From Fimbriimonadaceae bacterium (GTDB lineage Bacteria > Armatimonadota > Fimbriimonadia > Fimbriimonadales > Fimbriimonadaceae): a stretch of 64,000 bases of DNA. Below the pieces are notes generated by a model, which saw nothing but the letters and a program-made list of their open reading frames with translations, was not told the origin of the DNA and did not search any database. Shown one piece after another: positions 57,374 to 64,000 of the stretch (the first letter of the stretch is position 1; each line of letters starts with the position of its first letter). A program made the position numbers and the translations under genes. Location: assembly GCA_022843485.1 (NCBI GenBank), contig JALHNM010000001.1, forward strand, positions 248,001-312,000, written 5' to 3'.

Positions 57374-58015
57374 TCACCGGGCCCGGGCGATGGCCTCTTG
57401 GGTGGTCTTGAAGTGAAGCTTGGCGACGTCCGCCAGGGCCTGCGGGCCGCGTTGGCGCACGATGGCGACGGCGGCTTGCATAACGGGTGGCCCGGCGCCC
57501 TTCGGCAAGCTAACTCCGTGCTCCTCACCGAGCCGGGTCAGCCGTCCCACGAACTCGGACCTGGCCACGATGGAGGCGGCGGCGACGGCCGTGTCCGACT
57601 CCCCGCGGACTCGGCTCTCGAGCGTCACCTGTCGGCCCTTCTCGAAGAGCTGTCGCTTGAGCCCGGCCGGGTCGGCGAACTGGTCGGAGATCACGTAGTC
57701 GCAGTCGACCTTCTCGAGCACGTTCTCGATGGCCCGCGCGTGGCCCCAGGCGAGCAGCTTGTTCAGGTTGCCGATCTTGGCGTAGAGCTCGTTGTACTTG
57801 GCCGGGCCGATCGCGATCACGGCGTAGGGGCAGACCGCCTTGATCGTCGCCGAGAGCGCGTGGCACCTGGCGTCGGTCAGCTTCTTGCTGTCCATGACCC
57901 CGTCGAGCTCGGCCAGGTGCTCGGGACCCACATAGACGGCGGCCACGACGAGGGGGCCGAAGTAGTCCCCTTTACCGCTCTCGTCGACTCCGACCCGACG
58001 ACCAGGGTCTGGCAT
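57374..58015 (-). CDS. Ribonuclease HIII-like enzyme lacking the N-terminal domain
   Basis: The 213-residue protein starts almost at the catalytic core: RVGVDESGKGDYFGPLVVAAVYV, with the Asp-Glu pair (Asp11, Glu12) and the GKGDYFGP signature that separates RNase HIII from HII. Later come VMDSKKLTDAR, NLNKLLAWGHARAIENVLEK and ESDTAVAAASIVARSEFV with the third and fourth acids. Full-length RNase HIII (about 300 residues) has a TBP-like N-terminal domain that binds the RNA-DNA hybrid; that domain is missing. It removes RNA from RNA-DNA hybrids in the cytoplasm. Confidence 0.9.
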   Translation of the reverse strand: MPDPGRRVGVDESGKGDYFGPLVVAAVYVGPEHLAELDGVMDSKKLTDARCHALSATIKAVCPYAVIAIGPAKYNELYAKIGNLNKLLAWGHARAIENVLEKVDCDYVISDQFADPAGLKRQLFEKGRQVTLESRVRGESDTAVAAASIVARSEFVGRLTRLGEEHGVSLPKGAGPPVMQAAVAIVRQRGPQALADVAKLHFKTTQEAIARAR

Positions 58016-60495: not shown

Positions 60496-61389
60496 TCAGG
60501 TCAGGCCGACCCAGTCGGGGCCTGCCCGTTCGAGCCAGCGCGAACGTACGGCGTCGAACTCGGCGGCTGGAAGCGGCCCGCGGGCGAGGACCGCAGCGTT
60601 CTCGCGCCATCGTCCGGGCCGGGTCGTGCCGACGATCATCGTCGAGACCCCGCGGCAGGAGGCGGTGAAGCGCAACGCCGTATCGAGGGCCCGGGTGGGG
60701 TCGCCCGCCCACTCGTAGTCCAGCTCCCGGAGTCGGTCGAAGTACGGCCTCCGGTAGGGGCTCTCGGGCGGGGTGTCGCTGGCCCAGACCGCGTTCGCGA
60801 CCGGCCGCTTGACGATCACCCCGACCCCCTGTTCGGCCGCGAGGGGGAGCACAAGGTCGATGGCCTCCTGGTCGCAGACGCTCACCGAGATCTGGATCGC
60901 GTCGAAGTGCCCGCTCTCGACCGCCCACCGGGCCGCCTCGCCGTCGCCGCTGTAGCCGACGAAACGGGTCTGGCCCCTCTCCTGGGCGCGCTTCACGACC
61001 TCGATGACGTCGCCTTGCTGCAGGGTCTCGAGCGGGCAGCTGTGGAGTTGAAGGAGGTCGACCCGGTCGGTCCGGAGCTCCCGGAGCGAGCGTTCGATCC
61101 CGGCCGTCATCATGGCGGGCGTCCAGTCGTCACCCTCGAGCCCTGCGGCGTGGCCGGTCTTCGTGAAGAGCGCGAACTCGTCGCGGCGATGGCCGATCGC
61201 CTTGCCGATCTTCGTCTCCGAGTCCATGTAGCACTCGGCGGTGTCGATGACATTGAGCCCGTCGTCAAGGGCCGAGTTCAGCACGGCGCTACAGTCCTCG
61301 CCCTGCGGCAGCATGTAGCCGATCTCGCTCGTCCCCATCCCGAGCACCGTCACCTCGATCCCCGTCTTCCCCAGTTCCCGATGCTCCAT
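60496..61389 (-). CDS. Aldo/keto reductase
   Basis: The 297-residue TIM-barrel NADPH-dependent oxidoreductase has GMGTSEIGYMLP near the start, DTAECYMDSETKIGKAI with the catalytic Tyr54 and Asp49, TKTGHAAGLEG with the catalytic Lys, VDLLQLHSC with His, and VSVCDQEAIDLVLPLAAEQGVGVIVKRPVANAVW near the cofactor site. It resembles the group of AKRs acting on sugar-type aldehydes, but the substrate is unknown. The SD is GGAACGGA directly before the ATG. Confidence 0.9.
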   Translation of the reverse strand: MEHRELGKTGIEVTVLGMGTSEIGYMLPQGEDCSAVLNSALDDGLNVIDTAECYMDSETKIGKAIGHRRDEFALFTKTGHAAGLEGDDWTPAMMTAGIERSLRELRTDRVDLLQLHSCPLETLQQGDVIEVVKRAQERGQTRFVGYSGDGEAARWAVESGHFDAIQISVSVCDQEAIDLVLPLAAEQGVGVIVKRPVANAVWASDTPPESPYRRPYFDRLRELDYEWAGDPTRALDTALRFTASCRGVSTMIVGTTRPGRWRENAAVLARGPLPAAEFDAVRSRWLERAGPDWVGLT

Positions 61390-61438
61390 TCCGTTCCCAT
61401 CCGCTCATCGCGCCGAGCGGTGTGCGACACTCACACGG

Positions 61439-61444
61439 TACCAT
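61439..61444 (+). promoter_or_regulatory. -10 box TACCAT of the ATPase-DUF3226 pair
   Basis: TACCAT is followed by 6 bases and the GTG at 61451. It lies in the 61-base spacer to the divergent aldo/keto reductase gene. This means the pair, though foreign-looking in composition, has the host's promoter geometry. Confidence 0.45.
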
Positions 61445-61450
61445 TTCACC

Positions 61451-62548
61451 GTGACCATGCGGGCAGATCGCCTAGAGATTCACGGCTACCGGGGCTTCCA
61501 GCACTTCTCGATTCCTCATTTGGCTCGAGTCAACCTGCTCGTAGGAAAAAACAATTCCGGCAAAACTACGTTATTGGAAGCGATGCGCATTGGAGTTAGT
61601 CAAAATCCTGTTCAATCACTCGTCGCCTCTGCTAATCGACGACAAGAGTACGTGCAGCTACTGTCGGAGACCGGGGCTTTTCCGGCTCCTCGACGGGTGC
61701 CTTCGCAAGTAGACATCTCGCACTCTTTTTTTGGACACGAGCCCCAGGCCGACAGTGCGATCCAGATCCGTATCGACGCAAGTGTCGAGACAACCGTTAC
61801 TCTAGAGGAGCTAGAGGAGACTCCATCGCTCCCCTTCCTCTTCGATGAAGGGAGCTTCCCAGACCTGTCGTTGATAGCCCGCAGAGGAGAGGAAAGGGTC
61901 GAGGTTGCGTATGCATCTTCTGAGGGGCTAGTGTTCGAGTCGCGCAGGGCTCCCTCGCGGGTCGTTGGCGAGCCGGGAGACGTTCCATTTGTGGCGACTA
62001 GTGGTATGACAGATCGATTACTAGTTGTTGCATGGAACCGAGTCGTGACGATGTCCGCTGAAGACAAGATTGTTCGCGCGCTGCAGCTCTTGCACTCTGA
62101 TATTGTCGATCTCAAGGCTCTTCAGCCGGATGGAAATGCCTCTCGCGGATTCTTGGCGTACGTGCTTGTGCAAGAAAGCGATGGTTCCCGCTACCCGATT
62201 GGCTCTTACGGCGACGGCATGAAGCGATTGCTTGGACTGGCCCTCCTGGTGGCTAGTCTGCGGGACGACCTCTTGCTGGTCGATGAGATCGATACGGGGT
62301 TGCACTACAGTGTGTTGCCCGAAATGTGGAAGCTTTTAGTCCTTGGGGCCACAGACGCAAATTTTCAGGTAGTCGCTACGACCCACAGCTGGGATTGTAT
62401 CGACGGGCTCCGAGAGTTTATGCTTCGAAATCCCGAATATGCCGACACCGTGGCGGTGCACAAGGTGATCGCCGGGCAGAACATGGCCGTCTCGTTCACG
62501 GGAGAGGATCTCGTCTTAGCCTTAAAAGGCGGAGTGGAGCTACGCTAG
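61451..62548 (+). CDS. AAA family ATPase (OLD/RecF-like), likely defence component
   Basis: The 365-residue ABC-type (RecF/OLD-like) ATPase has LEIHGYRGFQHFSI at its N-terminus, Walker A VGKNNSGKTT (residues 31-40), the signature-like IGSYGDGMKRLLGLALLVASL (250-270), Walker B LLLVDEIDTGLH (Asp278, Glu279) and the H-loop VVATTHSWD (His312). It has no C-terminal TOPRIM domain of its own; that role appears to be in the next gene. The start is GTG at 61451 or ATG at 61457. GC is far lower than the surroundings (one 60-base line counts 24/60). Confidence 0.85.
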   Translation: MTMRADRLEIHGYRGFQHFSIPHLARVNLLVGKNNSGKTTLLEAMRIGVSQNPVQSLVASANRRQEYVQLLSETGAFPAPRRVPSQVDISHSFFGHEPQADSAIQIRIDASVETTVTLEELEETPSLPFLFDEGSFPDLSLIARRGEERVEVAYASSEGLVFESRRAPSRVVGEPGDVPFVATSGMTDRLLVVAWNRVVTMSAEDKIVRALQLLHSDIVDLKALQPDGNASRGFLAYVLVQESDGSRYPIGSYGDGMKRLLGLALLVASLRDDLLLVDEIDTGLHYSVLPEMWKLLVLGATDANFQVVATTHSWDCIDGLREFMLRNPEYADTVAVHKVIAGQNMAVSFTGEDLVLALKGGVELR

Positions 62549-63259
62549 ATGACCTTCGATGGTCGGATTTTGGTCGAGGGGAGTACAGACCGTCACGTCT
62601 TGCACGCTCTGCTAACCCGCGAGTTCAGCCAGCGCGGGTGCAGCCTTCGGAAAGGAGTCAACGATGTCCCAAATGGAGAGCGAAGTTCGGAGGTTCTGAT
62701 CGCAATCCCAAGGGAACTCGATGGGGAGGCTGACGGCGATAGTGGTGTCATCAAGGTCATTGGACTTCAGGTTCTTACCGCAGAGGTTCCAACCGCATTC
62801 GTTGTGGACGCGGATCTCGACACTGGTGTGTCCAGAAGATGGGAATCCATAAAGTCCAAGCTCAAGAAGGCCGACTTTACCGAATCCTTGCCCGAAGAGA
62901 TGCCGACAGGCGGGTTCGTAGGCACGAAGGTGGCAGGTTCGGTGCCCATCGGAGTCTGGATCATGCCTGACAATCTCAAGCCAGGGACGTTAGAGACGTT
63001 CCTCTCTCGCCTCGTTGTGTCGGATGACGGACTGTTCGAACATGCGCGTCAATCGACCGAGAAGGCTGTCGGTCTAGGCGCCAAGTTTTCTCCCAATCAT
63101 ACAGACAAGGCAAACCTTTACTGCTGGCTTGCTTGGCAGAGACCCCCAGGGCTTCCCTTTGGACAGGCGGTAACGAAGGGATACTTCTCCCAAATCGATG
63201 ATCCGCTCGCAAAGTCCTTCCTCGAGTGGTGCCTGAGAGTGTTCTTCCCCGGCAGCTGA
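62549..63259 (+). CDS. DUF3226 / TOPRIM-like protein, partner of the AAA ATPase
   Basis: The 236-residue protein fits DUF3226: VEGSTDRHVLHALL at residues 9-22 (Glu10 of the TOPRIM-like VEG), FVVDADLDTG (Asp87 and Asp89), VWIMPDNLKPGTLETFLSRL (about 136-155), DKANLYCWLAWQRPPGLPFGQAV and a FLEWCLRVFF end. The Glu and Asp-x-Asp pattern is that of metal-dependent TOPRIM nucleases. It starts directly after the ATPase TAG stop with no gap. Pairing of an OLD-like ATPase with a TOPRIM-type partner recalls the two-gene PARIS (AriA-AriB) system, but the family here is DUF3226, not DUF4435. Confidence 0.75.
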   Translation: MTFDGRILVEGSTDRHVLHALLTREFSQRGCSLRKGVNDVPNGERSSEVLIAIPRELDGEADGDSGVIKVIGLQVLTAEVPTAFVVDADLDTGVSRRWESIKSKLKKADFTESLPEEMPTGGFVGTKVAGSVPIGVWIMPDNLKPGTLETFLSRLVVSDDGLFEHARQSTEKAVGLGAKFSPNHTDKANLYCWLAWQRPPGLPFGQAVTKGYFSQIDDPLAKSFLEWCLRVFFPGS

Positions 63260-63292
63260 GATACGATCCGTCCGGACGACGCTGTCCGTTAA

Positions 63293-64000
63293 TCATTCGG
63301 CGCTGAAGGGGCGGACGTGTGCCTTTGCCTGCAGTTCCTCGACCAGCGTTCGATTGCCCATCCGGGTGCCGTCGGTGGTTGCGGTTGCGGCGCCGGCGGC
63401 GGTTCCGAGGCGGAGCGCCTCGGGGAGCGGCAGCCCTCGCTCGAGGCCGCAGAGGAACCCACCGATGAGCGAGTCCCCACTCCCGATCGTGCTCCTGGCC
63501 TCGACGGGGATCGGGCTGGCGACGAACTCTCCGTCCGCACCGACGGCGACGGCCCCTTCGGCCCCCAGGCTCACGATGGCGACGGGGTCGGGCGCCCCGC
63601 CCGCGGATTGACGCTCTCGAAGCGCCCTGGCCGCGGCGAGGGCGTGTCCCGTCGTCGTGACGGGTGCCCCCAGGAACCGGGCCGCCTCGTTCGCGTTCGG
63701 CTTGACGAGGGAGGGCCCCGCTTGGAGCCCCTCGACGAACGGGATCCCGTCCGCATCGAGCACCCAGGGCACCCCGTTTGAGCGGGCCATCTCCCCAAGG
63801 ACTCGGTAGGCGAAGTCGGGGAGGCCGGGCGGGAGCGACCCCCCGACCGCGAGCCAGCCGCACCGGGGGAGCCAGGCGGCGACGCGGGACAGGAGCGTCT
63901 CCCAGGCCAGGCCGTCGATGGGCGGCCCAGGGTCGCTGAAAGCGGTCGGCGGGCGTCCCGATCCGTCCTCCACGCTGACGTTGGTCCGGGTCTCAGCGTC
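63293..64000 (-). CDS. PfkB-family sugar-phosphate kinase (1-phosphofructokinase/tagatose-6-phosphate kinase type), 5'-truncated
   Basis: The frame is open to the window edge, so the N-terminus is missing; 235 residues remain. Visible landmarks are AETRTNVSVED at the edge (the ETRxN strand of the 1-PFK/LacC subfamily), VGGSLPPGLPD, DADG, VKPNANEAARFLGAPV, and the PfkB signature region STIGSGDSLIGGFLCGLERG with the catalytic Asp and anion hole. The TTxxGTRMGN end follows. It phosphorylates fructose 1-phosphate or a similar ketose phosphate. It faces the DUF3226 gene with a 33-base gap. Confidence 0.9.
   Translation of the reverse strand, partial: DAETRTNVSVEDGSGRPPTAFSDPGPPIDGLAWETLLSRVAAWLPRCGWLAVGGSLPPGLPDFAYRVLGEMARSNGVPWVLDADGIPFVEGLQAGPSLVKPNANEAARFLGAPVTTTGHALAAARALRERQSAGGAPDPVAIVSLGAEGAVAVGADGEFVASPIPVEARSTIGSGDSLIGGFLCGLERGLPLPEALRLGTAAGAATATTDGTRMGNRTLVEELQAKAHVRPFSAE

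Follow-up and report, generated by a model that had tools for sequence, protein, structure and literature searches.

A candidate split OLD/PARIS-like module of an ABC-type ATPase and a predicted DUF3226 TOPRIM nuclease in a Fimbriimonadaceae bacterium

ABC ATPases and TOPRIM nucleases are combined in several described systems. In OLD class 1/2 (TsOLD, BpOLD and the GajA protein of Gabija), both activities reside in one polypeptide, whereas the pair of genes that we describe here encodes two. Two separate genes are also found in PARIS (AriA and AriB, OLD class 4), and while OLD proteins cut DNA, the AriB effector acts on tRNA: AriA releases AriB, which then cuts the tRNA of the host (PMC12409363). 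AbiL provides a bicistronic, plasmid-borne precedent, and a network analysis has described AAA ATPases and TOPRIM_OLD proteins that are encoded side by side by separate genes and work as antitoxin and toxin (PMC10440598). Our analysis supports an OLD/PARIS-like architecture, proposed in a preliminary description of this DNA, for an ABC ATPase and a DUF3226 (PF11536) protein, a family to which Pfam assigns no function. The two-gene system put forward in that description is a real pair, but as a candidate it is not new because PADLOC already lists it as PDC-M38; new here are the catalytic assignment of DUF3226 and a mechanism proposal. In our literature search, which left most subscription papers and all preprints outside its scope, PDC-M38, DUF3226 and PF11536 were named nowhere.

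The window, by which we mean the whole stretch of 64,000 nucleotides that was analysed, carries the gene for an ABC-type (SMC/Rad50/OLD-like) ATPase of 365 amino acids at 61451–62548 on the forward strand. Its reading frame starts with GTG at 61451 and has an ATG two codons on, at 61457; position 61439, from which the pair had earlier been drawn, holds no start codon and lies 12 bases before the frame opens. The gene for DUF3226, a predicted OLD-type TOPRIM nuclease effector of 236 amino acids, follows on the same strand at 62549–63259, starts with ATG and abuts the stop codon of the ATPase gene with zero gap. The pair lies between two reverse-strand genes that we named by eye from their sequence as aldo/keto reductase (60496–61389) and sugar kinase (from 63293), and these neighbours delimit the presumably acquired stretch of low GC (61390–63292, no strand assigned). 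Same-size stretches in the rest of the window have a mean GC of 0.688 (s.d. 0.022, minimum 0.631) compared with 0.556 for the pair (z = -6.1); the low GC of the pair is thus far beyond chance, and the adjoining reading frames of lower GC than their flanks are confirmed. The source genome contains one DUF3226 gene and one copy of the ATPase of the pair. The best PADLOC models are PDC-M38A for the ATPase (4.1e-59) and PDC-M38B for DUF3226 (4.3e-37), and with both proteins and their adjacency in common with PDC-M38 and no difference among the features tested, the pair belongs to this entry in both components. Elsewhere in the window, at 57374–58015, a gene read by eye as coding for an RNase H-like protein (VDESGKGDYFGP, RNase HIII-like) adjoins a PyrR/PyrB pair.

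The ATPase matches AAA_15/AAA_21 in Pfam, and by its motifs it is an ABC/SMC-type ATPase, with a Walker A motif (G32-x-N-N-x-G-K38-T), a signature-like motif (P-x-G-S-x-G254-D-G256-x-x-R), a Walker B motif (L-L-x-D278-E279), a D-loop (D-T-G-L-H285) and an H-loop (T-T-H312). Among 72 ATPase sequences, G32, K38, G254, G256, D278, E279 and H312 are invariant and H285 is present in 71. The D-loop and H-loop histidines are shared with P2 OLD, where the matching residues (of Walker A and Walker B, and the D-loop and H-loop histidines) are needed to kill a sensitive Escherichia coli strain (PMC7049728). At the very C-terminus, E363-x-R365 (window 62537–62545) is conserved almost as strictly (E in 70/72, R in 72/72) and is possibly the site of contact with DUF3226. 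An AlphaFold2 model of the ATPase (pLDDT 89.3) matches the heads of SMC, Rad50 and PtuA with Z 16–19. The closest solved sequence is AriA, whose model matches the ATPase at 9e-24, although the PDC-M38A and AbiLi models rank above it, AbiLi with a full-length match at 4.5e-40.

DUF3226 appears to retain the whole two-metal nuclease set of OLD, in order. E10, D14, D87, D89, E149 and K187 match, one after the other, E400, E404, D455, D457, E508 and K562 of BpOLD, the active-site residues that served as our reference (PMC6755086), and the set also parallels, in order, E377, D381, D431, D433 and E480 of TsOLD; this mapping is one of order, spacing and conservation rather than of geometry. The features of an OLD-type TOPRIM domain are thereby all represented, namely the motif Glu and DxD, the metal-B acid at +4, the second metal-B Glu and the catalytic Lys. 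Among 75 DUF3226 sequences, E10, D87 and K187 are found in all, D14 in 74 and E149 in 73, while D89, the second residue of the DxD, is the least constant position and is mostly D with some N or E. Lys38 and Glu279 of the ATPase, and the VEG motif (E10) and Asp87/Asp89 of DUF3226, are the residues that had been named earlier.

The comparison of DUF3226 with the AriB and OLD TOPRIM domains that the preliminary description had called for points in the same direction, in that the predicted fold is TOPRIM-like. The AlphaFold2 model of DUF3226 (pLDDT 87.7) finds its top structural match in PH0156 (PDB 2p62; Z 10.4 over 197 residues), a Pyrococcus hypothetical protein that differs in being an archaeal structural entry without a function and that matches DUF3226 weakly by profile (E 6e-4). 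Further matches are BpOLD (Z 8.4), retron Eco2 (7.4), TsOLD (7.2), with XccOLD likewise at Z 7–7.5, and AriB (6.0), and these OLD and AriB rows stand only modestly above unrelated Rossmann-like folds at Z about 5–6, one unrelated row reaching 8.1. No TOPRIM match reached significance in Foldseek by itself (best E 4.9e-3, to retron Eco2). The fold call therefore leans on profile evidence as well, and on several lines taken together. By hhalign, DUF3226 aligns with the OLD TOPRIM at E 1.2e-6 and with an AriB-like set at E 8.6e-6, with both TOPRIM motifs aligned and reversed controls above 0.3. The Pfam scan returned PF11536 at 1e-45 and otherwise only a sub-threshold OLD-like_TOPRIM match for the window protein, whereas three DUF3226 proteins exceed the cut-off of the OLD-like TOPRIM family PF20469. 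The best PDB match of one DUF3226 profile (A3) is AriB (E 0.02); TAL-effector matches of another (A1) were discarded as repeat artefacts, and phmmer of DUF3226 against the PDB yielded chance matches only.

The two genes are near-obligate partners. A scan of species genomes confirmed at least 553 relatives, of which 80 loci were kept for the analysis of pairing, and the ATPase lies directly upstream on the same strand in 77 of the 79 testable loci, across many phyla, so that the predicted co-occurrence of DUF3226 homologues with this ATPase is borne out. In the Armatimonadota loci uncut by a contig end, the ATPase is upstream of DUF3226. The distance matrices of the two proteins from 68 loci correlate with r = 0.865 (maximum of 2000 permutations, 0.18), a value that by itself is no proof of contact and that indicates that the two are inherited together as complex partners would be. 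The two exceptions, L096 and L115, encode a DUF3226 protein with catalytic motifs and no adjacent ATPase; at L096 a transposase-like reading frame takes its place, at L115 nothing similar adjoins, and both genomes carry other members of the ATPase family elsewhere. Two tandem ATPase–DUF3226 pairs are present at each of L111 (6863–10624) and L047 (1–3175), the second copy at L047 being broken. An apparent ATPase–DUF3226 fusion at L058 was rejected: its middle is out of frame and the ATPase match ends at 275 of 371 positions, consistent with an apparent frameshift.

Several observations point to horizontal movement of the pair, namely patchiness, GC content, mixing of phyla in the tree, carriage on plasmids and a synteny breakpoint. 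DUF3226 is found in 32 of 291 Armatimonadota genomes and is absent from the one same-genus genome that we compared. That genome keeps both flanking neighbourhoods (L130 and L131), but about 175 kb apart, which places the pair at a synteny breakpoint (window 60496–63973); between its 5'-nucleotidase and aldo/keto reductase genes lie about 2.9 kb that are absent from the window. Of 38 loci from other organisms with long flanking sequence, 37 have a pair whose GC is below that of its surroundings, by a mean of 6 points, whereas ten control positions in the same 38 loci gave mean differences between -0.5 and +1.0 points. Phylum labels on the DUF3226 tree are clustered yet mixed, with 25 changes where the least possible is 12 and the shuffled mean is 47.5; some of the MAG records are possibly mis-binned. 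The DUF3226 of the window sits on a long, unsupported branch, and hence no donor can be named. Patchy occurrence, low GC and mixed phyla together support the earlier suggestion of an acquired module.

A plasmid search retrieved nine plasmid records with relatives, including plasmids of 4–40 kb from Acinetobacter, Citrobacter and Klebsiella and a plasmid of Plesiomonas. On some of the small plasmids the pair lies beside other toxin–antitoxin pairs (BrnT/BrnA, RelE/NadS). On the 396 kb Plesiomonas plasmid (NZ_CP027853.1, 237462–258040) it follows contractile phage tail genes, a position that could be that of prophage or phage-plasmid cargo, and on the plasmid NZ_CP038011.1 the open DUF3226 frame is preceded by an ATPase annotated in two pieces, through either assembly error or decay. 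The phage collection yielded no DUF3226, one scan of viral contigs gave no relative, Foldseek against viral structures found nothing, and the Plesiomonas and Citrobacter pairs, used as DNA queries against E. coli genomes, likewise had no match.

For all its likeness to the described systems, the pair stands apart from PARIS, Gabija and AbiL. AriB contains DUF4435 (PF14491), which the Pfam scan did not find here, and membership in PARIS was rejected on that ground; the window effector is instead DUF3226, and AriA has 464 amino acids compared with 365 in the window ATPase. The catalytic set and the predicted TOPRIM-like fold of DUF3226 are shared with OLD class 1/2, GajA included, but Gabija was rejected because there are two polypeptides and no UvrD-like GajB, the neighbours being the aldo/keto reductase and sugar kinase genes. 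AbiL differs in its effector, AbiLii/RloB, and was rejected likewise: RloB (PF13707) was not found by Pfam, and hhalign of DUF3226 against RloB gave no signal (probability 0.4%). We read the pair as, most probably, a toxin–sensor defence module of split OLD/PARIS-like design, and as a member of none of these three systems.

Altogether, we favour with reasonable confidence a model in which the two genes were acquired horizontally and form a conflict module of the split-OLD kind, composed of an ATPase sensor and holder and a DUF3226 TOPRIM nuclease. In our model, DUF3226 would be bound and restrained by the ATPase in the uninfected cell; an infection signal, be it a phage protein or an altered nucleotide state, would change the ATPase, which would then release or activate DUF3226. 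As a two-metal nuclease, DUF3226 would cut phage or host DNA or, like AriB, host tRNA, and infection would be stopped, probably via abortive infection. Complex formation, restraint, trigger, cleavage and defence are modelled here on OLD and PARIS. Phage defence as the selected role is held with less confidence than the general model since the defence-island test was negative. The preliminary description had anticipated enrichment in defence islands, and this was not found: at 1e-20, 125 genes near the pair matched 18 PADLOC families and 121 genes 7–10 kb away matched 47, in a rough test with a crude ORF picker and a sample from one subfamily, and the neighbours of the pair are mostly ordinary genes. 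This result does not exclude defence, because class 1 OLD genes, too, have not been found in the vicinity of other defence candidates (PMC10568477). Two other PDC candidates of PADLOC, on the other hand, gave no protection when assayed (PMC12409345). Also counting against our model are the lack of DUF3226 from the phage collection and the viral-contig scan, and the DUF3226 genes of L096 and L115, which do not suit a toxin held strictly in check by an adjoining ATPase, although both genomes have ATPases of the family elsewhere.

A toxin–antitoxin module, with DUF3226 as the toxin and the ATPase as the antitoxin, might instead be selected by plasmid or locus maintenance rather than by phage defence. 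Carriage on small plasmids, some with BrnT/BrnA or RelE/NadS alongside, the antitoxin-first gene order, and the split AAA ATPase and TOPRIM_OLD pairs that a published screen classes among neutralised toxins (PMC10440598) all agree with this idea. We nevertheless regard it as unlikely: a large, fully conserved ABC ATPase exceeds the needs of a neutraliser, the at least 553 relatives in species genomes contrast with nine plasmid records, and the two DUF3226 genes without an adjacent ATPase speak against it as well. Moreover, such a module would be compatible with defence, as AriA and AriB are both antitoxin/toxin-like and defensive.

The ordinary neighbours, the missing defence-island signal and the SMC/Rad50-like fold of the ATPase would also suit a maintenance pair acting on nucleic acids outside defence, in repair, on the chromosome or in the cell cycle, for which the archaeal OLD protein Cran1, with its role in the cell cycle and not in defence, is a precedent (PMC12796447). 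Patchiness within the phylum and within one genus, plasmid carriage, a GC below that of the host in nearly all loci and the intermixing of phyla argue against such a role, and we consider it quite improbable. That two unrelated genes merely adjoin and DUF3226 is no enzyme would be in keeping with the lack of a Pfam function and the weak Foldseek matches, yet this explanation is refuted by the pairing, the correlated distances and the full catalytic set, and we give it practically no weight. Returning to the split-OLD model, it is tempting to speculate that the pair represents a widespread class of split OLD nucleases in its own right, found in different phyla and on plasmids, that has a trigger and a substrate of its own and works independently, away from defence islands, in immunity or against plasmids; we put this forward tentatively, as possible though short of probable.

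The two genes form a real system, acquired and conserved, that was already on record as a candidate. DUF3226 proteins are common, and the OLD two-metal set together with the near-obligate ATPase partner now gives specific residues to mutate in what had been an unnamed catalogue entry, PDC-M38. If defensive, the pair would join PARIS as another class of split OLD, of a kind that guilt-by-association within defence islands would tend to overlook.
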